Assembly (NCBI GenBank): GCA_002731275.1
Contig: PCBK01000168.1
Span: 1-64,000 of the forward strand
DNA: 64,000 nt
Origin: Deltaproteobacteria bacterium
GTDB taxonomy: Bacteria > Myxococcota_C > UBA6777
Direction of reading: 5' to 3'
A program made the translations under genes and the position numbers. The notes under the pieces are model-generated. The model had not been told where the DNA came from. It saw nothing but the letters and a program-made list of their open reading frames with translations, and searched no databases. This document shows, piece after piece, positions 49,601-62,920 of this stretch. Positions within the stretch are counted from its first letter, which is position 1. The number at the start of each line of letters is the position of its first letter.

Positions 49601-49696
49601 GTGGGATCTTCTTGTATAGTTGTTTGCAAGGGATAAAGTCGTGTGATTTGCGGCTTATTAGACGAATATGAGTGTTTGTTGCGAAGAGGAAAATCC

Positions 49697-52600
49697 ATGA
49701 AGTGGTCAGGGCTCTTTTATATGTTGTTGGCTGGTTGCCTTTTGTGGGGCACCTCATTTTCATCGACAGGTTGTGTCGTGGGCTCTGGCTCACAAAAGAC
49801 GATCGCCTGTGAAGTGGATACAGATTGTGCGAGTTCACTGCCTTTTTGTGTCGCTCAGAAGTGTGTGCAGTGTAAATCTGATGGCAATTGTGCCGAAGGG
49901 ATGGCTTGCCAGAGCGGCGTATGTCAGCCCAAACCTGCCGAAGAGAAGGCCTCAGAGCCCGTCGTCGAGAAGGAAGAAACAGCACCTGTTGAGCCGACCA
50001 AAGAAGTCGTCGCCGACGCAGGAGAGGAGAGCGTGCTTCCCGAAAGTGCGCCTGAAGAAGCTGTGGCGGAGATGACCCCTGAGGAACCTGCCGTTCAAAC
50101 ACTCAACTGCTATCCCAATCACAAAAGTGTCGAAGTGCATGCACATCCGTACGCAGCAACACGTCATGGTCTCGCGCGCATCGATGTGGATCCCAAACAG
50201 AGATACATCGCCTTCGTCAATGAAGACGAATTTCACGTGCGGATCTTATACAGAAGCAATGGTTTGTTGTATCGCGTCCTGAGAGGCCACACCAATGGGG
50301 TCTACGACGTTGCCTTCTCTCCTGATGGAAAATACGTCGTCTCGGCCTCCAAAGACACGACCATTAAAGTCTGGGAGGTCACAACTGGAAAGCTCATCAG
50401 GACACTCAAAGGCCACACCTCCCATATCTACAGGGTCAATGTCGTCAAGGATAACATCGTCTCCGCTGGTTTCTACGATCGAACCGTGAGGATCTGGCGA
50501 CTCAGTGATGGAAAGCTCCTCCACAAACTGACCATGCCAAGCACCGCAAGGTCTGCCGAACTGAGCCCTGACGGAAACACCCTCGCCATTGGCGTTGATG
50601 ATAGAAAAATCTATATCTACACATTCGACAGTAAAGCCAATAAGTGGAACAAAAAGTACACACTGACTGGCCACACTTCTGCCATTTACGAGACGATTTT
50701 CCGTCCTGATGGAAAACAACTTCTGTCTGTGAGTACGGACAAAACGTTGCGCTTTTGGGACCCTGTCGCGGGGAAATCTGTAGCCTCTGTGACTCTGGGC
50801 CAATATGCACTTAGCGCGATGTACTCGACGGACGGGAAGCTACTCGCTGTTGGGACAGCTTATTCAGGAGTGACTGACGGACGCCGTGTTCTGTTGTACG
50901 ATGCCAACACACGAAAACTGATCAGGCGGACTGATTCATTCAGCACAAGTGTTCGCTCGGTCGCGCTCAGCGGTGACAAAAAATATGTCTATGGAGCAGT
51001 CGAAGACAGTACCTTCCGCTATCACAACGTCAGTGATGGGAAACGTGCTCGGTTGTTGCTCACACACGTCGACCGCCGCTCACTCGCGATCTTCAGCCCT
51101 GATGGCAAGACACTCCTTAACACGAGCGCGGCGTCATCGAAGGTCAAGCTGCTGGATGTCGCAAATGGCAATGTGTTACACGAAGTGAAAGGACATCCTC
51201 ACGGTGTACGTGCTGCGGCATTTAGTGAAGATGGCCAATGGTTTGCGACAGGTGCCGACGATGGGAAGCTTCGGATCTTTGAGACAGAGACGGCGAAGTT
51301 GGTGCGCGAGATCAGCGCACACTCTATGCCCATCAACACAGTCGCGTTTAGCCCTAACGGTCTGACGATCGCTTCTGGCTCTTGGGACCGCAAGGTGAAA
51401 TTGTGGAATGTCAGCAACGGTGCCAAAAGCGCGGAGCTCAATCATAGTGAGATCGTGACTGGAGTGAGCTTTCACGCTGGTAATGAGTATCTCGCGACGT
51501 CTTCTCTGGCCAAACGTATTCGTGTGTTTCGTTTCTTCAGTAGCACTTGGTCCCCGCTCTTTACATCCATTCCCTCTGGGGCCAATTTTATGACCGTTGT
51601 GAAGTTTCACCCTGACAAAAAGCGCCTGTTTGCGGCAGATTACTCTGGACGGGTGTATCAATGGGACTTCAAAAATGCCAACGCAACACCCACAAACACA
51701 CGGACGATCCATCGCTCGACCATCAGAGATCTTGCTTTTGATAAGAGTGGTCAGTACATGGCGACAGCTTCATACCAGCGTGTCGCGAAGCTCGTACGTG
51801 TGAGTGACGGCGAAACACTTCAAACGTTTGGTCGTAATAGCGGTTTTGTCGCAGGTGTCTCTCTCAACTCCGATGCCACAATCTTGGCGACGACTGCGTG
51901 GGATCGCAGTATTCATTTGTGGGATATCAAGAACAAGATCGCGCCCTCAACAAAATTGACTCACCAAGCGGCAGTCAAAGCCATCGATGCCCAATCCAAT
52001 GGAGACCTGATCGCGTCTGGCGACGCTGGCGGGAACATCACGTTCTGGAACATTCATACAGGCAAAGAGGTGAAGTCCTTTCCAAAGGTGCACGACAAAG
52101 TCCTCTCCTTGCGGTTTAGCCACAATGGCAAGTTGATGGCTTCTGGTGGAGAAGACGCGAAGATCTTTATCTGGGAAGTGGACACTGGCAAAAAACTACA
52201 CGAACTCATCGGCCACAGCGAGACCATTACCGCATTCCGCTTTAGCCTCGATGACAAAACGCTCTACTCCTCTTCGTGGGATGCGACGATCCGTGAGTGG
52301 GATGTGAAGACAGGTAAGGAGCTTCGTCTCTTTGCAGAACATGGCTCCGATCGTGTCTTGAGTATGGACATGAGCCCTGACGGAAAGACCATGATCTCGG
52401 GGGATTACGAGTCCAATATTCTAATTTGGGATATCAAGGATATGAAAGTCGCCCACAAAAAAGGTGAACACACAGGTGGGGTGACTTCACTCGCGTTCTA
52501 CACGCGTGGGGACTACTTCTTCTCGGGCTCGTATGACACGGATATTCGTTTTTACACCATCACAGGCGGCCACAGGATCTCTTTTAGTGACCACCTCAAG

Positions 52601-53707
52601 TCGATCCTCTCTGTCGATACTTACTCCGACAACCGATTTGCCCTGACAGCGTCACTTGACGGAAATATCCGCATCTGGGACGTCGTCAACTTCCGCGTCG
52701 CGCAGCTGCTCGGTGGTGGAGCAGGGACGGGACACACTGGTGCGGTGAATCAGGCTATGTGGGGGCCACGTCAGAAGACCATTCTCTCTGCCTCTGATGA
52801 CATGACGGTTCGTATTTGGAAGCTCGGACAGGCTCCCCTCATTCGCAGCATTTTTGACGGCCAATACAAAGCCAACGCGACTGTTCTTCGGCCAGATGGT
52901 GGTGTCGCTGCATCTGGAGGTGATGACTCTATTGTTCGTGAATACTATGTTCGCACGGGCGGTCATAAACGGACCTATTACAGTATTGGGAGCGCCGTCT
53001 TAAGTGTCGCGTACAACGCAGATGGTTCGATGATCGCAGGTGGTTCTGTCAAAGGGAACTTGCGCATCTGGAAGACGAGTAACGGCGCCTACGTCAAACA
53101 AATGAACAACCAGGCTCCCGTCAATGCGGTCATCTTCCACCCCGACGGAAAAACAATTTTTGGGGCTTCAGACAAAGCGCTCACACAGTGGAATATCGCC
53201 GACGGAAAGTCTGTCAAGGTCTGGACTGGACACGCAGGCGCAGTGAAGAGTCTTTCAATGAGTCCAGACAAGACGATGATGGTCTCTGGTGGCCAAGACA
53301 AAAAAGTGATTCTTTGGGATCTCAAAACCGGGAAACCAACACAAACACTCTCCACGCCCAACGAAGCTATCAGTGTCTCTTTTGGTCCTGCCAACCAACA
53401 CATCGCTGCGCTCTCCAAAGACGAAGGTGTCCATGTCTTTGGAGTCGATGGCAAAAAGATCGCCTCTGCGACCCTCCCTCAAAAGGGAGCGACCACTGTA
53501 CGCTTTGGGACGACGCCAGATGTCGTCGCTGTCTCTTTCGATGATGGAACTATTCGGTTTTATCGTATCTCTGAGAGTCAATGGGTTGAGCTTGTGCAGC
53601 CCATCAAGCGCCCATTCCTCTCTCTCGATCTGCTCTCAGAACAAGGCATCATGTCCGCGACCAATGACAACGGTGTGCTCTTTGTTTGGCAATGTGCAAC
53701 GCCGTAA
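49697..53707 (+). CDS. WD40-repeat lipoprotein, about 28 repeats
   Basis: 1,336 residues from the ATG at 49697 (AGAGGA upstream). The signal peptide ends at lipobox STGC. A short disulphide module (CEVDTDC...CVAQKCVQC...CQSGVC) and an acidic Glu/Pro/Val linker (about 80-135) follow. About 28 WD40-like repeats fill the rest, many with clear GH...FSPDGK...SASxDxTIKVW cores. Twenty-eight is four times seven, so four seven-bladed propellers are a natural reading. Secreted WD40 lipoproteins serve as interaction scaffolds; ligands are unknown. The Cys module matches those of the neighbouring Cys-rich lipoproteins. Confidence 0.88.
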   Translation: MKWSGLFYMLLAGCLLWGTSFSSTGCVVGSGSQKTIACEVDTDCASSLPFCVAQKCVQCKSDGNCAEGMACQSGVCQPKPAEEKASEPVVEKEETAPVEPTKEVVADAGEESVLPESAPEEAVAEMTPEEPAVQTLNCYPNHKSVEVHAHPYAATRHGLARIDVDPKQRYIAFVNEDEFHVRILYRSNGLLYRVLRGHTNGVYDVAFSPDGKYVVSASKDTTIKVWEVTTGKLIRTLKGHTSHIYRVNVVKDNIVSAGFYDRTVRIWRLSDGKLLHKLTMPSTARSAELSPDGNTLAIGVDDRKIYIYTFDSKANKWNKKYTLTGHTSAIYETIFRPDGKQLLSVSTDKTLRFWDPVAGKSVASVTLGQYALSAMYSTDGKLLAVGTAYSGVTDGRRVLLYDANTRKLIRRTDSFSTSVRSVALSGDKKYVYGAVEDSTFRYHNVSDGKRARLLLTHVDRRSLAIFSPDGKTLLNTSAASSKVKLLDVANGNVLHEVKGHPHGVRAAAFSEDGQWFATGADDGKLRIFETETAKLVREISAHSMPINTVAFSPNGLTIASGSWDRKVKLWNVSNGAKSAELNHSEIVTGVSFHAGNEYLATSSLAKRIRVFRFFSSTWSPLFTSIPSGANFMTVVKFHPDKKRLFAADYSGRVYQWDFKNANATPTNTRTIHRSTIRDLAFDKSGQYMATASYQRVAKLVRVSDGETLQTFGRNSGFVAGVSLNSDATILATTAWDRSIHLWDIKNKIAPSTKLTHQAAVKAIDAQSNGDLIASGDAGGNITFWNIHTGKEVKSFPKVHDKVLSLRFSHNGKLMASGGEDAKIFIWEVDTGKKLHELIGHSETITAFRFSLDDKTLYSSSWDATIREWDVKTGKELRLFAEHGSDRVLSMDMSPDGKTMISGDYESNILIWDIKDMKVAHKKGEHTGGVTSLAFYTRGDYFFSGSYDTDIRFYTITGGHRISFSDHLKSILSVDTYSDNRFALTASLDGNIRIWDVVNFRVAQLLGGGAGTGHTGAVNQAMWGPRQKTILSASDDMTVRIWKLGQAPLIRSIFDGQYKANATVLRPDGGVAASGGDDSIVREYYVRTGGHKRTYYSIGSAVLSVAYNADGSMIAGGSVKGNLRIWKTSNGAYVKQMNNQAPVNAVIFHPDGKTIFGASDKALTQWNIADGKSVKVWTGHAGAVKSLSMSPDKTMMVSGGQDKKVILWDLKTGKPTQTLSTPNEAISVSFGPANQHIAALSKDEGVHVFGVDGKKIASATLPQKGATTVRFGTTPDVVAVSFDDGTIRFYRISESQWVELVQPIKRPFLSLDLLSEQGIMSATNDNGVLFVWQCATP

Positions 53708-53913: not shown

Positions 53914-55806
53914 ATGATGAGGCTGTTTTTGCGAACGTGCGGATTGCTTTGCTTGTTTGTGTTGGTGGCTTGTGAGGGGGCTCCCAAGAGTTTTCAGATC
54001 AAGCCTCCAGCGTTTTGCAAAAGTGACGCGGATTGTTTCGATATTTCAAAGTCTTGCGTGGGGGGGCTGTGCCAGTATAAAGCCAAAACGGATCTCTGTG
54101 GCAATGGTTTTTGCGACGCGAGCGAGACGTGTAAGACATGCCCTCAAGATTGTAGTGCTGCGTGTGGGAGCTGTGGTGACAGTGTCTGCGATGTGGGCAC
54201 TGGAGAGAATTGTGCTTCGTGCCCTTCTGATTGTGGTTGTAAGTTACCACAAGTATGTAACCGCTCGAAGCTGTCTTGTGAGAAGACATGTGGCAATGGT
54301 GTGTGTGAGAACACGTACAATGAAAATTGTGAAACATGTCCCGGAGATTGTAAGTGCCCAGCGGGTCGAGCATGTACCAAGGGGAGCTGCTTTAACGCAT
54401 GTGGCGATGGACGTTGTGACGCCGCAGAAAACGAGAACTGCACCAGTTGCCCTGATGACTGTGGGTGCCCGGATGGGACGCAGTGTCAAAATGGCCGCTG
54501 TGGTGCTGCATGTGGAGACGGGACTTGCGATGATACACAAGGGGAAAATTGTTCCTCTTGTCCTACTGATTGTGCGTGTAAGACGAGCGGTGAGATCTGC
54601 GCGAATGGTCTCTGTCAGGCACCTTGTGGAGATGGTTTTTGTGAGATCGCGCGCAAGGAGAATTGTGATACCTGTCCAAGTGATTGTTCTTGTCCATCAC
54701 AGCAATATTGCGACGTTGTAAGTGGGGGATGTCTTCCTTATTGTGGGGACAATCAATGTGATGCCAATCGAGGAGAAAATTGTTCGACTTGTGCGAGTGA
54801 TTGTAAGTGTAATGACAAACAGGCGTGTTCGGGAGGGTCTTGTGTCTGTGTAAAGCAATGTGCAGGCAAAGAGTGTGGTGATGACGGTTGTGGCGGACAG
54901 TGTGGGAGCTGCTCTGGTGCGACGACGTGTGACACGGGTACAAACAAATGTGAGTGTACTCACGAATGCACCTTGGGAGATGGAGAGTGCACCGGAGGAA
55001 AAGGCTATCGTCGATGTTTGCTCGACGCCTCTGGCTGTCGTGTGTGGCAGACAGGAACATGCCAAAACACCTGTGAGGATGATGGGGTATGTTGTGATTG
55101 TGGGAGCAAGGTCTGTGGTAGCGATGGCTGTGGTGGGTCATGTGGGGCTTGTTCGAGTAAGGCGAACTGTGTGTCAGGGCAGTGCCAATGTACACATGAG
55201 TGCAACAGCGTCGGAGAGCTTCGCTGTAGTCCCCAAAGTAATGGAAAGTACGAAGAATGTTTCGCAGACGCCAGTGGTTGTCGTTATTGGTCGGAGAAGT
55301 CTTGCTCGGGTGGACGTACTTGTGTAAATGGTCAATGTTGTACACCGACTTGCTCTGGGAAGGAGTGTGGGAGTGATGGTTGTGGTGGCCAATGTGGTTC
55401 GTGCTCGTCAGGTGGAGGGACTTGTTTCTCTGGCTTGTGTCCGCGTACATTGGAGATCATCAGTATTAAGGTCCCTTGTCGTCATGCCTTGTGTCGAGAT
55501 TATCGTGGGAACTCAAGTGACAAACGTCCCGATGTGATCGTGAGTGTTCAGCTCTCAAATGGCCAAAAGTTTTATATGCCAACCCGGCAAAATATGGAGT
55601 GTGATAAGGAGGTCCAGGTAAACTGGAAAGGTGTCACGGGCGTTGATCCGGCAGGCCTGAATGGGATGTCGATCGCCGTGTTGGATAAAGATGGAAGTTC
55701 CAGCGCAACAGTTTGCGCTTCTTGGTGGCGCGACTTTTCTGGCTACACAAGTGAGACGACCTTTTCCAATAACTTCATCGATATCAAACTCAAAGTGACC
55801 AAGTGA
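53914..55806 (+). CDS. Cys-rich lipoprotein with seven CGNG modules (paralogue 1)
   Basis: About 630 residues from the ATG at 53914 after AGG; the ATG three bases later is as likely. Lipobox LVAC. An N-terminal FCKSDADCFD module precedes seven tandem units of the form CGxGxC-x8-ENCxxCPxDCxC (about 45-290). Three CGxDGCGGxCGxC units follow, alternating with two CTHEC...C...DASGCRxW units. A roughly 115-residue C-terminal domain starts LEIISIKVPCRHALC and contains MSIAVLDKDGSS, resembling a C2-like beta-sandwich. Cys spacing implies an extended disulphide rod. The function is unknown; it is the longest of three tandem paralogues. Confidence 0.8.
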   Translation: MMRLFLRTCGLLCLFVLVACEGAPKSFQIKPPAFCKSDADCFDISKSCVGGLCQYKAKTDLCGNGFCDASETCKTCPQDCSAACGSCGDSVCDVGTGENCASCPSDCGCKLPQVCNRSKLSCEKTCGNGVCENTYNENCETCPGDCKCPAGRACTKGSCFNACGDGRCDAAENENCTSCPDDCGCPDGTQCQNGRCGAACGDGTCDDTQGENCSSCPTDCACKTSGEICANGLCQAPCGDGFCEIARKENCDTCPSDCSCPSQQYCDVVSGGCLPYCGDNQCDANRGENCSTCASDCKCNDKQACSGGSCVCVKQCAGKECGDDGCGGQCGSCSGATTCDTGTNKCECTHECTLGDGECTGGKGYRRCLLDASGCRVWQTGTCQNTCEDDGVCCDCGSKVCGSDGCGGSCGACSSKANCVSGQCQCTHECNSVGELRCSPQSNGKYEECFADASGCRYWSEKSCSGGRTCVNGQCCTPTCSGKECGSDGCGGQCGSCSSGGGTCFSGLCPRTLEIISIKVPCRHALCRDYRGNSSDKRPDVIVSVQLSNGQKFYMPTRQNMECDKEVQVNWKGVTGVDPAGLNGMSIAVLDKDGSSSATVCASWWRDFSGYTSETTFSNNFIDIKLKVTK

Positions 55807-55888
55807 GTAACACCATACATCCTGCAATATCCGTTGATTTGCGTCTGTGTTCTTTCCCCTCTTCCTCATAGAAATATCTTCCTCTTTG

Positions 55889-55917
55889 TTTACGAATCAC
55901 CTTGTTCTGGCTATACT
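55889..55917 (+). promoter_or_regulatory. Candidate promoter of Cys-rich paralogue 2
   Basis: TTTACG (55889-55894), 17 bases, TATACT (55912-55917), about 75 bases before the start codon. This suggests that paralogue 2 can be expressed separately from paralogue 1. Confidence 0.45.
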
Positions 55918-55994
55918 TACATTTATTCTCTCGTGGAGAGAGTCGTTTTGTCGGGTCGAAGGACTGAACCCGGCTCGTCAGAAGGAGGATGATT

Positions 55995-57422
55995 TTGGAC
56001 AGGTTTGTTGTGTTGCGTTGGGGAGTGGCGTGTTTGCTTCTGTCATCGCTCTTGTGGTTGTCTTGCTCTGGAGAGCCACGTTTGTTTCAGATGCCTTCGA
56101 GCCGTCTCTGTTTGACGGACCAAGAGTGCGGTGGGAGTCAGACCTGTGTGAAGGGATTGTGTACCCTCCCGTATGTCCCTGAGTATGGGATAGAGCGCTC
56201 CTCTGAACCTTACTCGACAGAGCCTAGTTTGGATGGTGGGGGTGGGGATGGAAGTGTCGTGGACGAGAAAGAAGTGTGTGGGAATGGGGCTTGTGGTCTT
56301 GGGGAGGATTGTGAGAATTGTCCCAATGATTGCAGTTGTTTGCCATCGTTTCTTTGTGTGAAACGAGCGTGCATCAAGACGTGTGGCAATGGTATCTGCG
56401 AAAATGTCCACAACGAAGACTGTGACAGTTGTCCTTCTGATTGTATGTGTCCTGTGAATAAGGTTTGTCAATCTGGAAAGTGTGATACGCCAGCGCGTTG
56501 TGGGGATTCTATCTGTGACACTGACGCAGGAGAGGATTGCAAGATTTGTGCGGCGGATTGTGGATGTGGAAACAAAGCCTGTGTTGCCGGAAAATGCGTT
56601 GATGCTTGTGGGAATGGGAAGTGTGAGACCGGCAAAGGTGAAAACTGTTGGACCTGCAAGGCGGATTGTCCCTGTCCTGGGGGATTGACATGTAAAAGCG
56701 ATCAATCCGGAACATGTGGGGGGGCATCATGTGGTGATGGTGCATGTGATCCAACCGCCAATGAAGACTGTAATACATGTCCTCAGGATTGCCAGTGCGT
56801 TGGCAAAAAGTCATGTGTCAATGGACTCTGTGAGTGCCAGGATGAGTGCAACCAACAAGGGCGTCTCACCTGTAATGGGAATCTCAACGCGGTCAGGGTA
56901 TGCAAGAAGGACGCTGACGGTTGTTATCATTGGGATAGTACACCATGCTCGAATGGACAGGTTTGCTCAACCGTAAACAGTCAGTGCTGCACGCTGCAAT
57001 GTAATGGCAAAGTGTGTGGGGATGATGGATGTGGCGGACAATGTGGGGCTTGTCCTGGAGGGCAGATATGTCAGGCTGGACAATGTGTTGCAGCGACCAG
57101 GACGTTTATCGTCGAGAAATTTGCGGTACCTTGTGTTGCATGTGGGGATGGTCTCTTTGCTCTTGCTGATCCCTATGTATTTGTTGCCAATCAACACTCT
57201 CCTGTTTCGAAAGACACATGTTTTATTGAGAAGACGATCAAATGGGAGTTTACTGTCCCTATCAACACGCTTGGAAGTGTGAGGGTTGAGCTTCGAGATG
57301 ACGATGGTGGTGGCAAGTTTGATAAATGTGGTGCAAAAACGTTGGATCTCTCAAATGTGACGACAAACATCACAAAGTTCGACTTGTCAGATCGCAACGC
57401 TGTGTGGATCCGTCGAAAGTGA
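55995..57422 (+). CDS. Cys-rich lipoprotein with five CGNG modules (paralogue 2)
   Basis: 475 residues if the TTG at 55995 is the start: GGAGG ends six bases upstream of it, whereas the in-frame ATG at 55989 directly abuts GGAGG and is too close. The signal peptide ends in LWLSC. Opening LCLTDQECGGSQTC is followed by five CGxGxC...CxxDCxC units. One CQDEC...C...DADGCYHW unit and one CGDDGCGGQCGAC unit come next. The C-terminal domain starts FIVEKFAVPCVAC and has VRVELRDDDGGGKF, an acidic loop like a C2 calcium site. Same order of parts as paralogues 1 and 3. Confidence 0.8.
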   Translation: MDRFVVLRWGVACLLLSSLLWLSCSGEPRLFQMPSSRLCLTDQECGGSQTCVKGLCTLPYVPEYGIERSSEPYSTEPSLDGGGGDGSVVDEKEVCGNGACGLGEDCENCPNDCSCLPSFLCVKRACIKTCGNGICENVHNEDCDSCPSDCMCPVNKVCQSGKCDTPARCGDSICDTDAGEDCKICAADCGCGNKACVAGKCVDACGNGKCETGKGENCWTCKADCPCPGGLTCKSDQSGTCGGASCGDGACDPTANEDCNTCPQDCQCVGKKSCVNGLCECQDECNQQGRLTCNGNLNAVRVCKKDADGCYHWDSTPCSNGQVCSTVNSQCCTLQCNGKVCGDDGCGGQCGACPGGQICQAGQCVAATRTFIVEKFAVPCVACGDGLFALADPYVFVANQHSPVSKDTCFIEKTIKWEFTVPINTLGSVRVELRDDDGGGKFDKCGAKTLDLSNVTTNITKFDLSDRNAVWIRRK

Positions 57423-57519
57423 AGTCTCTACACTTTGGAAAAAAAGAAGCACCTCAATCGACCTATAGGACGACAATATACGTGACTTGGTGTCTGTGGT
57501 TTTTTGTATTGGAGTGATG

Positions 57520-58752
57520 ATGTTCAGAAGATGTTTTCGTTACGTGGGGTTGTGTGTTCTCGGTCTCGCCATGTTGATGGTAGCCTGCCAAAACCCCGCG
57601 ACATTTTCATTGGGCAATCCCGCTGCTTTTTGTAGCGCCACAACACCTTGTCCTACCGGAAAAATCTGTTGGTATAGTCTCTGCCGTTATCCTGCCTCCA
57701 TCCCGACTGATGCCGGACATCCTGATAACGCTCCTCCCGCCGAACGCCAAACTCCAAAAGATGAACAAGTAGGGGTGTGTGGCAACGGGATATGTGAACA
57801 CGCAAATGGTGAACATTGTGAGAACTGTCCAAATGACTGTAATTGTCCAGAGGGACGGTTATGTCAGCCGGGTGGAGGGTGTGGTGTTGCGTGTGGGAAT
57901 GGCTCTTGCGAGAACAACCTAGGAGAAAACTGTCGAACGTGTAACAAAGATTGCGCGTGCAATGTAGGTGCGATTTGTAACCAAGTGGGGAGCTGTTGTG
58001 AACGGCAGTGTGGTAACAAAGAGTGTGGCAATGACGGGTGTGGTGGGCAGTGTGGGAGCTGCGCCGCAGGTGCGCAGTGTCAAAATGGTCAATGCTCATG
58101 TGTTTCAAATTGTTCGGCGGGGGCGGCTCTGTGCAAAGACAACAAGACGCTTCAACGCTGCAAAGAAGGCCCTGCTGGATGTTTTCGTTGGGAAGATGTC
58201 CTATGTGCTGCCAATCAAAGCTGTGTAAGTGGGCAAACAGAGTGCTGCGCACCAAACTGCAATGGTAAGACCTGTGGGGATGATGGATGTGGTGACTCAT
58301 GTGGTGCTTGTAACGCACCAGAGACCTGTCAGGCCGGGACGTGTAAAGCGCCTGAAAAATCTTACACCATTCGTATTAAACGTTTTCAGGTGCCATGTGC
58401 AAACTCGACTTGTTTCGATACAAGCTCGCCTTTTAAGGTGGATCCATTTGTGTGCTTCCAAAGCTCACCAGGGGATAGTGCGTGTGGAATGGGAAAAACA
58501 TCCCCTGTCGTTGATACATGTAATCGTCCCATCGATACAAAAGACCAAAACGGCGCCTCCATCCTTTTGACCTATACTGCAACACAGATCAGCTCGGGGA
58601 CCAACATCGAGATTCGTGACGATGATGGCGGAAGTTTTCAGACGTGTTGTACATTTGCGTTATCCACATTGTTCTCATCTGGAACGGGCACACAACAGAG
58701 CGCTTCGGGGTTTTGCTTTCTGAACGTCGAGATCGTCACACCTTACCCCTGA
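57520..58752 (+). CDS. Cys-rich lipoprotein with two CGNG modules (paralogue 3)
   Basis: 410 residues from the ATG at 57520 (GGAG five bases upstream); ATG 57517 is too close to it. Lipobox MVAC. After FCSATTPC and a short Pro-rich linker come two CGNGxC...CxxDCxC units. CGNDGCGGQCGSC, a CVSNC...C...GPAGCFRW unit and CGDDGCGDSCGAC follow. The C-terminal domain starts YTIRIKRFQVPCANSTC and includes DPFVCFQ and IEIRDDDGGSF, again C2-like. The stop lies six bases from the stop of the convergent MopE-type gene. Confidence 0.8.
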   Translation: MFRRCFRYVGLCVLGLAMLMVACQNPATFSLGNPAAFCSATTPCPTGKICWYSLCRYPASIPTDAGHPDNAPPAERQTPKDEQVGVCGNGICEHANGEHCENCPNDCNCPEGRLCQPGGGCGVACGNGSCENNLGENCRTCNKDCACNVGAICNQVGSCCERQCGNKECGNDGCGGQCGSCAAGAQCQNGQCSCVSNCSAGAALCKDNKTLQRCKEGPAGCFRWEDVLCAANQSCVSGQTECCAPNCNGKTCGDDGCGDSCGACNAPETCQAGTCKAPEKSYTIRIKRFQVPCANSTCFDTSSPFKVDPFVCFQSSPGDSACGMGKTSPVVDTCNRPIDTKDQNGASILLTYTATQISSGTNIEIRDDDGGSFQTCCTFALSTLFSSGTGTQQSASGFCFLNVEIVTPYP

Positions 58753-58758
58753 TATTCT

Positions 58759-61700
58759 CTATTGGACAAACAACATATGGAAGGCGTTACGTGTCTGTGT
58801 GGAGGTGGAGACTTTGTGTGTGATGCCGTACGCGCCGTTTGCACGATGCTCCATCGTTGCAGATATGTCGAATGTACGGCTGGTAGTGTTTGTGTTGGGG
58901 ATGGCGTTGATCAGGACTGCGCTTGCGCCACCCCATCCTTGGAAGGTGATCTGGGGGACTTTCCAGGTAGAGTTGAGCTGACTGGAGAAGACCGCAGGAG
59001 TTGTCTGGTCAAACGTCTGAGAGTCTCGCAGCGATCCTTGTTCGTTGACCGTTGCCCATGCAGCGAGCGCTTTGTTTGGGAACCACACCGCGAAAGATGC
59101 GTCTGTTGGTTGTCCTGAAGCATTCAATGTTCGGACATAGCATTTGTTTACCCCATTGACGTTTGCATACCCCACCATTACGTACATCGTGCTGTTGCTG
59201 TTATAGATGGTCGCAAAGTAGGGCTGACCGGACTGACAGTAAGAGGTGTTGGTGATGTATACACCTGCTGATTCACGCGTGACCGTGATACTTCCATGTG
59301 AGAGAGTGCTGTTACAGCTCGTTTTGGTGCATGTCACCAACGCCCACACCTCGTTATTGTTTTTGCCTGGCACGACCACGCTGAAGTCTGAGGAGGTGGG
59401 TCTGTTTGTGAGAGCGCTTCCTCTGCGCATCTTGATTCTGTATTTTGCGCCATCACAGCTGTATGAGATGGACGCGAGTGAGATGTTTTTGACCGACGCG
59501 AACAGAGGGTGTGTTGCGCATGAAATCCCTGTCGCTGGCGTGAGAGTAAAGTGTTGGTTGAAGGTATCTTTCACGGGGTTTCCTGTGAAGCCACGATGCT
59601 TTCCGTAGGTCGGTGAAACGGCTGTATTTTGGACGACTGCGAATGAGTCGCGCTTGTTTCCACATATCTCATCAACCTGACCATCACAGTCGTTGTCTAT
59701 ACTATCACGACATGTTTCCAAGGATGGTGTGAGAGGACGGGCACTACATGTTACATCTGTGAGTGTGGGAGCACAGACGTACGTTCCTTTGTTTTGACAG
59801 GCACCTTTCCCTACAATGCATTCGGTATGAAGTTTGCTGAAGTCTTCGTCTATATCGCCATCACAATCATCATCTTTTCCATTGCATAACTCTGTTGTGG
59901 GTTGGGTCGCGCTACAATTGACCCAGCTTCCGTTTTGACATGTCTCTTGCCCCTTGCCACAAGCGGTGCTGCAATCTTGTTGAAGCGCTTCGTCGACAAG
60001 TCCGTCACAGTCGTCATCTTTGCCGTTGCAAGTTTCTGTTTGAGAGCCTCCGGCTTTGGCGTCGCAGAACACTCCGCTGTTGTCTTTTTGACACTTGTAG
60101 GTGCCTGTACTTTGGCAGATTCCTAGACCGACAGTGCAGGTTTTGCCGATAGGGAAGTCTTCGTCTGTTTGGCCATCACAGTCGTCGTCTTTACCGTTGC
60201 ATGACTCCGTTTGTGGGATGATGATGGGAGTTAAGCAAATGGTCGTTTTACCGTCAAGTCGGCACTGGTAGGTTCCTTTTTGATAGCAGATGCCTTTTTT
60301 TCCATTGTTGCAGTCTTCGCCTACCCGGAAGCCTTCGTCGACATCACCGTCACAGTCATCATCAAGGCCATTACATGACTCGGTTTGTGGTGTTCCTGGG
60401 ATGGCATTGCATTGGGTGTCTGAGCCGTCCGTTTTACAAACCTTGCTCCCTGGACGTTTACAGATACCTTTGCCGTCTGTACAGCTCTTGCCAAGATCCC
60501 CGAAGTCTTCGTCTGTTTTTCCATCACAGTCGTCATCAAGGCCATTGCATATGTCTTTGGTTGGGAGCTGTTCATTTAGGCATGTCCCCCATCCTCCGGC
60601 GCTACAGGTTTGGGTTCCAGTGCGGCATGTTCCTTCGCATTTGAAGGTCTTCGTGGTTTCATCGTATGTGCAGCCTTCTTTCCCCGAATAGCAGGAGCGA
60701 GAGAGCTCCTCATCGACGTGGCCATCACAATCGTTATCTTTGCCATCACATTCTTCATCTGTTGGCTTTGGTGGGTTGGCGTTACACTCGACTTTGTTGG
60801 CGTTACATACATATTTTCCGATCGCGGCACACCCGCCACTACCGGATGTGCAGATGTGACCAAGGTCCTTGAAGTCTTCGTCTGTTTTGCCATCACAGTC
60901 GTCGTCTTTGCCGTTACATAGTTCTGCGATCGGTTTGATTTCACCGTAACAAGTGCCCCACGTCCTCTGTGCAGTACATTGTTGCGTGCCTTTTTTGCAG
61001 GCACCTGTGTCGATTCCACATGATTGTGTGTCGCCAACTGCGCAGCAGTTTGTTTGTCCTTCATCGATTTGGCCGTCGCAGTTGTCGTCTTTACCATTAC
61101 ATGTTTCTGTCGTGGGCGTTTGTTCATAGATGCAGGTACCCAGCTTACCTGATATGCACCACTGAAATCCTGCGCGGCATTGTCCTTTACACAAGTACGT
61201 GAAACCGCTTTTGGTACAACCACTTGTTCCAGTGTAACAAGCCTGTCTTCTTATCCCCTCATCGACCTGACCATCACAATCGTCATCTTTACCGTTGCAT
61301 TGTTCTGTGGTGGGTGAGCGGGGGAGTGCGTTGCATTCGACACCTCGTCCATCTGAACGGCAGACGTATTTTCCTGTCGATTTGCACTCACCAGTGCCGA
61401 CTGAGCAGGTATGACCCAGTCTTGTGAAGTCTTCGTCGGTTTGACCATCACAGTCGTCATCTTTTCCGTTACAGCGCTCTCTTTGTGGGATGACGGAGCC
61501 CACACATTGTTGCCACTTTCCTTTGTCACATTGTTGCTTGCCTGAGGCACATAAACCTTTGCCCTGTGTGCCTGAAGGACCTGTGTAACATACTCGATCG
61601 ACGCCTTCATCGATCTGTCCGTCACAATCGTTGTCGATGTTATCACAGGTCTCACTCTCAGGTATGCCGAGTGTTGCCTTACATTCGACGTCTTTGCCAT

Positions 61701-62799
61701 CTGCACGACATACATACACTCCCTCACGTTCGCATGCGCCGACGCCACTTTTGCAAGTCTTGCCTAGTTTTTTGAAGTCTTCATCAGTCTCGCCATCACA
61801 ATCGTCATCTTTGCCGTTACAAATTTCTTTTTGTTTGGGGTTGGGTGTGGCGTTGCAGATGATTTGTGTAAAGCTTTGATCTTTTGGGGAGAGAGAAGTT
61901 TTTGGGTTGCAGATATAGCGACCTTTCTTTCGACATGCGCCGAGTCCGGCATAGCAATCGCCACCGAGGTAGACATCTTCGTTACTGGAGCTTCTTTGGA
62001 AGTCTTCATCAGTCTGGCCATCACAGTCATCATCTTCACCGTTGCATACCTCTTTGGAGGGGGGGAGTTCGACGACGCTACATTTTTCTTTTCCATCGAT
62101 ACAGACGTATGTTCCTGTGTTTTTACAGCGACCAGTACCCACAACGCAGGTTTTGGTTAGATTGGTGAAGTCTTCGTCGATATCGCCATCACAGTCATCG
62201 TCTTTACCGTTACAGAGTTCTTTTTGTTTGAACTCATCTGCGGCGCTTACGTTACATTGGGTTGCTGTCCCGTCGAGTGTGCAGATGATATTCCCTGTTT
62301 GTTGACAGACGCTTGTGCCTTCTGTGCAGCTTTCACCAAGGTCCGTGAAGTCTTCATCAGTCTGGCCATCGCAGTTGTCATCTTGGTGGTTACACAGTTC
62401 TTTTTCTGGAAGTTGTTCACCTTCGCACGGGCCCCACTGTCCTTCAATGCAGCGTTGGACGCCAGCTTTGCAGATCCCTTTGCCTTTTGTTCCTGCAGGA
62501 CCGGTGTAGCAGGATTTTGTTTGTGCAGCTTCACAGACTTGTTCGATGGGGATTTCGGGGGGTGTGTCGGCGTCTTGGTTGGTGGGTTCTTTGGTGGGTT
62601 CTTGGGGAGGGGTGTATTCTGCGCTGGAGAATGAGCCTTTGATGCGAACGATACAGATGGAGTTTTGGCATGTCTCTGAGCTTTTGCATTCATTGTTGGA
62701 TTCGCAGTATGTCGCGACGGAGCCGTTGGAACAATGAAGTGTGGAGCCGACGATGATGAAAAAACAAAGATAGTGTAGCATCTTTAGCTGATTAGACAT
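58759..62799 (-). CDS. Lipoprotein with 16 MopE-type metal-binding motifs
   Basis: 1,346 residues from the ATG at 62799 (AAGGA seven bases upstream) rather than ATG 62823. The signal peptide leads to a likely lipobox STLHC. An opening ATYCESNNECKSSETC module and Pro/Glu linker follow. Sixteen copies of ExCNGxDDDCDGxxDE repeat about every 55-80 residues (residues about 140-1070), interleaved with CxxGxGxCxxxGxxxC units. This motif is the putative metal-binding signature of Methylococcus MopE and of many myxobacterial exoproteins; acidic loops suggest calcium or copper. The last 280 residues form a separate Ser/Thr-rich domain I do not recognise. Confidence 0.85.
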   Translation of the reverse strand: MSNQLKMLHYLCFFIIVGSTLHCSNGSVATYCESNNECKSSETCQNSICIVRIKGSFSSAEYTPPQEPTKEPTNQDADTPPEIPIEQVCEAAQTKSCYTGPAGTKGKGICKAGVQRCIEGQWGPCEGEQLPEKELCNHQDDNCDGQTDEDFTDLGESCTEGTSVCQQTGNIICTLDGTATQCNVSAADEFKQKELCNGKDDDCDGDIDEDFTNLTKTCVVGTGRCKNTGTYVCIDGKEKCSVVELPPSKEVCNGEDDDCDGQTDEDFQRSSSNEDVYLGGDCYAGLGACRKKGRYICNPKTSLSPKDQSFTQIICNATPNPKQKEICNGKDDDCDGETDEDFKKLGKTCKSGVGACEREGVYVCRADGKDVECKATLGIPESETCDNIDNDCDGQIDEGVDRVCYTGPSGTQGKGLCASGKQQCDKGKWQQCVGSVIPQRERCNGKDDDCDGQTDEDFTRLGHTCSVGTGECKSTGKYVCRSDGRGVECNALPRSPTTEQCNGKDDDCDGQVDEGIRRQACYTGTSGCTKSGFTYLCKGQCRAGFQWCISGKLGTCIYEQTPTTETCNGKDDNCDGQIDEGQTNCCAVGDTQSCGIDTGACKKGTQQCTAQRTWGTCYGEIKPIAELCNGKDDDCDGKTDEDFKDLGHICTSGSGGCAAIGKYVCNANKVECNANPPKPTDEECDGKDNDCDGHVDEELSRSCYSGKEGCTYDETTKTFKCEGTCRTGTQTCSAGGWGTCLNEQLPTKDICNGLDDDCDGKTDEDFGDLGKSCTDGKGICKRPGSKVCKTDGSDTQCNAIPGTPQTESCNGLDDDCDGDVDEGFRVGEDCNNGKKGICYQKGTYQCRLDGKTTICLTPIIIPQTESCNGKDDDCDGQTDEDFPIGKTCTVGLGICQSTGTYKCQKDNSGVFCDAKAGGSQTETCNGKDDDCDGLVDEALQQDCSTACGKGQETCQNGSWVNCSATQPTTELCNGKDDDCDGDIDEDFSKLHTECIVGKGACQNKGTYVCAPTLTDVTCSARPLTPSLETCRDSIDNDCDGQVDEICGNKRDSFAVVQNTAVSPTYGKHRGFTGNPVKDTFNQHFTLTPATGISCATHPLFASVKNISLASISYSCDGAKYRIKMRRGSALTNRPTSSDFSVVVPGKNNNEVWALVTCTKTSCNSTLSHGSITVTRESAGVYITNTSYCQSGQPYFATIYNSNSTMYVMVGYANVNGVNKCYVRTLNASGQPTDASFAVWFPNKALAAWATVNEQGSLRDSQTFDQTTPAVFSSQLNSTWKVPQITFQGWGGASAVLINAIPNTNTTSRTFDISATMEHRANGAYGITHKVSTSTQTRNAFHMLFVQ

Positions 62800-62920
62800 G
62801 TACCGTTCCTTTATGCCAGACATGCGACGATGTGTGAGAGCATGGTTGTGTTGTGCAAGCTATGTTGAGAGAATCACTTACTTTGTGAGGATAGCACGTT
62901 ATGGCATCGGAATGAAAGCG

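Follow-up and report, generated by a model that had tools for sequence, protein, structure and literature searches.

Based on profile comparisons and a structural model, the carboxy-terminal tips of three neighbouring cysteine-rich lipoproteins, termed W1, W2 and W3, are assigned here to the synaptotagmin-type C2 domains, and in related genomes the gene of their probable parent form adjoins type IV pilus genes. The trio lies in the window, the 64,000-nucleotide stretch analysed here, which belongs to a 10.75 Mb MAG. The three would be members of a lineage-specific family of lipoproteins destined for export, each with a disulphide-rich rod built from CGNG and CGxDGCGG modules and a C2 domain at its C-terminal end.

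W1–W3 are encoded by three neighbouring open reading frames on the forward strand (Table 1), at the site where a sequence-only reading of the window had described three tandem Cys-rich lipoproteins with a shared order of parts. This description was confirmed, as each protein runs from a signal peptide with a lipobox-like Cys through a short Cys module, CGNG units and CGxDGCGG units into the C-terminal domain. The lipobox, identified by reading the sequence, is LVAC in W1 and MVAC in W3, and WLSC in W2, deviating from the consensus at position −3. The W3 frame already opens at TTG 57487, upstream of the ATG used in Table 1. Script counts reproduced the reported CGNG series of 7, 5 and 2 units exactly; the stepwise loss of modules holds for this unit and fails for the CGxDGCGG units, whose counts of 3, 1 and 2 are not graded. 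Likewise, the FC-x-DC module said to be shared is literal in W1 only, its place being taken by LCLTDQEC in W2 and FCSATTPC in W3, the DDDGG loop is present in W2 and W3, as claimed, and absent from W1, and the common C-terminal domain of about 110 residues proved to be one related head family with lengths of 121, 109 and 132 residues.

Table 1 Features of the trio and its flanks in the window, and loci of conserved gene order elsewhere; C2 tips are predicted.
Feature	Position	Strand	Remarks
WD40 lipoprotein, upstream flank	49643-53707	+	
W1 lipoprotein, 630 aa: 7 CGNG + 3 CGxDGCGG + C2 tip	53914..55806, coding 53914-55803	+	lipobox Cys codon 53971
W1 CGNG array, 7 units	54097..54804	+	script count
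W1 CGxDGCGGxCGxC units, 3	54859..55404	+	starts 54859, 55099, 55351; linkers of ~60 residues, Cys-containing
W1 C2 tip	55441..55803	+	4/5 expected Ca-ligand Asp, fifth is Thr; 140 bits against head profile
W2 lipoprotein, 477 aa: 5 CGNG + 1 CGxDGCGG + C2 tip	55989..57422, coding 55989-57419	+	putative lipobox Cys codon 56064
W2 CGNG array, 5 units	56277..56792	+	script count
W2 CGxDGCGGxCGxC unit, single	57000..57053	+	
W2 C2 tip	57093..57419	+	5/5 expected Ca-ligand Asp: D19, D26, D69, D71, D77 of tip
W3 lipoprotein, 410 aa from ATG 57520: 2 CGNG + 2 CGxDGCGG + C2 tip	57520..58752, coding 57520-58749	+	lipobox Cys codon 57586
W3 CGNG array, 2 units	57778..57954	+	script count
W3 CGxDGCGGxCGxC units, 2	58009..58311	+	starts 58009, 58258, Cys linker in between
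W3 C2 tip, most diverged of trio	58354..58749	+	4/5 expected Ca-ligand Asp
MopE lipoprotein, downstream flank	58759-62823	-	
Loci of conserved order	L065 (G000:C178), L064 (G002:C146), L054 (G003), L055 (G001)		

W1–W3 are real genes, as shown by protein identities of 39% and 35% between neighbours over long stretches, a Cys content of 16.7, 13.8 and 13.4% in W1, W2 and W3, respectively, and a divergence of the longer DNA repeat blocks, whose identity does not exceed 77%. The same divergence of the repeat blocks indicates that the array is old, and a misassembled or recent array was rejected on this ground. Full-length W1–W3 gave no significant match to Pfam or NCBIfam. Scans for promoters and terminators around the trio yielded matches at chance level, and we infer no operon for it. 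Both flanks encode lipoproteins as well. The upstream one consists of 1354 residues, almost all of them in WD40 repeats; its lipobox is followed by a short Cys module resembling the one in the trio. The downstream one bears 16 MopE-type metal-binding motifs (PF11617) and ends in a region of about 300 residues for which no Pfam match was found.

The C2 assignment of the tips was approached by profiles and by modelling. Among the family members, the tip of C178, a paralogue elsewhere in the genome of the window, passes the PF00168 (C2) cut-off of 22 with 24.5 bits, and the standard copies of the family in the genomes G001, G002 and G003 pass this gathering threshold as well. The individual W1–W3 tips stay below it and are tied to C2 via the head profile, on which they score 140, 106 and 106 bits, respectively, values that denote consistency and not independent support since all three are members of the profile. 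Searching the PDB with the C-terminal domain alone, as a profile of eight tips, yielded C2-domain proteins exclusively (36 sequences up to E = 1, best E 0.0011), including cPLA2 delta, otoferlin, synaptotagmins and PKC, and when the profile was built from just the three standard tips closest to one another, synaptotagmin-1 was matched at E 1.7e-4. The structure predicted for the W2 tip reached a mean pLDDT of 86.5 and a pTM of 0.80 from only five sequences. It matches the antiparallel β-sandwich of solved C2 domains, pointing to membership in the C2 superfamily, with the listed Foldseek matches being C2-domain proteins and a VIA-align superposition onto dysferlin C2A at Z 12.4 and an rmsd of 2.2 over 101 residues. 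Within a weak full-length model of W3, which at a pLDDT of 63 is too uncertain for describing the construction of the rod or estimating its length, the head matched C2 domains at E 1e-4, Notch ligands among them. Together with the Asp cluster described below, these data bear out the C2-like head and possible calcium site proposed by the sequence-only reading.

Seven columns, C16, D18, D25, D75, D77, C85 and T99 in reference numbering, are invariant in all eight tips, and the four Asp persist although identity to the reference is as low as 22–51%. D25 is part of a DPYV motif and D75/D77 form the DxD of loop 3, both aligned with the same motifs of synaptotagmin-1 (DPYV, DYDxxxxxD); D18 occupies the position at which the first loop 1 ligand is expected, although the HMM alignment does not extend to it. 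The fifth Asp follows D75 at a distance of eight residues; it is kept in C178, G001, G003, C143 and W2 and replaced by Thr in W1 and W3, so that the sequence pattern expected for the ligands of loops 1 and 3 is complete in W2 (5/5) and reaches 4/5 in W1 and in W3. Four Asp may suffice for calcium, as the C2 domain of Jagged-1 coordinates it by two Asp and a carbonyl (PMC3888931). We consider a calcium site in the W1–W3 heads likely from this pattern, and as loops 1 and 3 also contain conserved Cys, the domain may be braced by disulphides. W1 and W3, with no fifth Asp and very diverged heads, may have changed their binding partner or lost Ca2+ binding. Many C2 domains have proteins as ligands, and this, the Thr in W1 and W3 and the strong divergence of the trio heads would also fit a calcium-free scaffold that binds a protein or glycan, such as a pilin, a PilY1-like adhesin or exopolysaccharide, leaving the Asp cluster as a relic or stabilising site; as four Asp are invariant in tips where nearly all else varies, we regard this scaffold as unlikely.

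The trio belongs to a larger family with a standard form. Besides some twelve further proteins with CGNG repeats, the majority of them without a C2 tip, the genome of the window (G000) encodes three more C2-tipped proteins of the same head family, C178, C82 and C143. C178 and C82 share the full layout of CGNG units, CGxDGCGG units and C2 domain, which recurs in one copy each in G002 and G003 and in one contig-cut copy in G001. All uncut copies outside the trio, spanning three genera, contain exactly eight CGNG and three CGxDGCGG units, and the units keep their positional identity across genera, with 23 of 32 assigned correctly in a leave-one-out test compared to 4 expected; both observations indicate that the standard form is a fixed architecture. 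C143 joins the same tip to MopE repeats, placing it on a second type of stalk. Apart from this family, we noted matrixin-like proteases (HExxH) that have the stalk module in common with it, combining CGNG repeats with a sorting-type Cys-TM-Arg tail at the C-terminus, and that bear no C2 tip (L004, L010, L011).

The notion of graded rods presenting the same head as a system of their own was not supported by this comparison: the conserved unit is the single 8+3+C2 protein beside a pilus cluster, and the trio heads are related to the standard head at an identity of only 22–30%. Members of the trio were detected in the genome of the window only and are, judged from their sequences, most simply explained as shortened derivatives of the standard form, their probable parent. 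In the head tree, their branches measure 3.0, 3.2 and 8.7 changes per column, compared to 0.2–0.9 for the others, which marks the trio as fast-evolving relatives, and because of this extreme length we claim no order of duplication. The W1 and W2 arrays begin with the unit most similar to position 2; the mapping of the other lost CGNG units is weak. These long branches, the reduced number of modules and the confinement to a single genome would be expected of decaying duplicates as well, that is, a non-essential trio losing modules by drift with the pilus-linked copy alone being functional. Drift, however, would hardly leave all three reading frames intact with the Cys framework, the lipobox-like Cys and four or five Asp preserved, rendering decay improbable.

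The standard gene is followed on the same strand by genes for an M50B-like membrane peptidase (PF13398), a PilC of the T2SSF family, a PilS-type kinase and a PilR-like sigma-54 regulator. This order extends over four genomes of three genera, namely G000 (at C178), G001, G002 and G003, where the families were scanned in G003 and the other loci were read by the same order and similar sequence, the G001 contig stopping within pilS. Prepilin-like genes lie near the standard locus in G000 and G002. The failure to find a tip in G004 is uninformative, since the contig there only begins within the M50B gene that lies just before pilC. In G003, the gene of a beta-helix lipoprotein with near-identical VSVNINNSHRV repeats (L054, 3404-5956) immediately precedes the standard C2 gene. 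The C2-tipped lipoprotein and the M50B-like peptidase possibly constitute a pair of accessory proteins new to the type IV pilus locus. Shared gene order is no proof of joint function, and the window trio itself has no pilus-gene neighbours; the pilus linkage of the probable parent form nevertheless suggests a role in calcium-dependent contact between cells or surfaces.

Our leading reading, which we put at slightly less than an even chance, is that lipid-anchored, disulphide-braced rods display a calcium-dependent, probably lipid-binding C2 head and that the standard copy works with the pilus. The stalk would form a rod with its lipid anchor in the outer membrane and the C2 head outermost. Extracellular calcium is usually millimolar, which is enough for low-affinity C2 domains, and at such environmental levels the head would bind Ca2+ via loops 1 and 3. 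The loaded head could dock onto anionic phospholipid, LPS phosphate or matrix on prey, an adjacent cell or the pilus of the same cell, with the standard copy acting alongside the type IV pilus in contact, adhesion or motility and the trio representing variants of shorter reach and altered head specificity. The constant 8+3 composition of the pilus-linked copy could also be read as a fixed length matching a fixed gap. In this case, the lipoproteins would face the periplasm, with the rod crossing part of it, and would serve as tethers or length gauges by attaching their heads to the inner leaflet, to the inner membrane or to proteins of pilus assembly. This arrangement would agree with the M50B membrane peptidase and pilC adjoining the standard copy and with the Asp at position +2 after the lipobox Cys of C178, an inner-membrane retention signal in E. 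coli, although the E. coli rule may not hold in this phylum. The +2 residue, however, differs between copies (E, S, Q, D, T, K, Q), as do the rods of the trio in both repeat counts, and we deem a periplasmic location quite unlikely.

C2 domains are the textbook example of how eukaryotic cells translate calcium into membrane binding, and usually bind calcium and lipid inside animal cells. The tips share with the PF00168 domains of synaptotagmin, PKC and cPLA2 type the predicted fold, the DPYV of loop 1 and the DxDxxxxxD of loop 3, and differ in being exported, Cys-containing, C-terminal on a bacterial lipoprotein and individually below the Pfam C2 model in the trio. Notch ligands (Jagged-1, Delta-like) likewise have a Cys-rich extracellular rod with a C2 domain at its distal end, and that of Jagged-1 binds phospholipids in a Ca2+-dependent manner outside the cell (PMC3888931); with DSL/EGF rod modules, an N-terminal C2 domain, a membrane-spanning anchor and a eukaryotic origin, these proteins are an analogy of layout only. 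A similar general plan is found in TraA, the outer-membrane exchange receptor of Myxococcus, which combines a recognition head with a Cys-rich repeat region at the cell surface (PMC3820747). TraA, however, has a PA14-like head and a MYXO-CTERM sorting tag, whereas the trio has a lipobox and ends in the C2 domain; W1–W3 gave no match to the NCBIfam TraA model and contain no MYXO-CTERM tail. MopE-type Cys/acidic repeat proteins (PF11617), represented by the downstream neighbour, differ from the trio in the stalk module, and the neighbour has no C2 match. C143 does couple MopE repeats to the C2 tip, which, together with other apparently exported C2 proteins, suggests that mobile exported C2 modules are a theme of the phylum. 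The claim that the trio is not a described system thus stands in part: the head falls into a known fold family, PF00168, and the combination of a C2 domain on a bacterial Cys-rich lipoprotein stalk with pilus linkage appears undescribed in the searches made. Our literature search retrieved no report on bacterial C2 lipoproteins, its partial coverage making this weak evidence of absence.

The tip was detected in four of the five genomes of the phylum and in none of 381 other genomes sampled. PF00168 matched in all five (6–9 matches each at E 1e-5) and in none of 285 other genomes and 14 controls, so that C2 domains looked rare in the bacteria sampled, a rough rate given that the comparison covers a spread of bacteria with mostly smaller genomes among those listed. 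No match to the head was found in viral contigs, plasmids or phages. The first head alignment was too variable throughout to be used for scanning contigs; a closer one gave matches in two named relatives, 'Deltaproteobacteria bacterium isolate M3003' and 'Myxococcales bacterium isolate S139...'. A wider proposal, which we hold to be doubtful, is that this Myxococcota-like phylum recruited the synaptotagmin-type C2 domain to form exported tips that sit on disulphide rods and bind membranes in a calcium-dependent manner, a conserved copy being part of the pilus locus. By layout, this would be a bacterial counterpart of Notch ligands that serves calcium-gated contact between cells or between cell and prey. 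A phylum with predicted C2 domains exported on Cys-rich lipoprotein stalks, one copy being pilus-linked, would allow extracellular C2 function to be tested in bacteria and is relevant to the spread of C2 domains between bacteria and eukaryotes. Two further C2 proteins were noted in these genomes: a G003 protein, apparently exported, in which two canonical C2 domains occur (L049, 973-2055, reverse strand), and a signal-peptide C2 protein continuing into long (RKVEPAP)n linkers and Cys-containing segments (L058, G000:C3:313272-316562).
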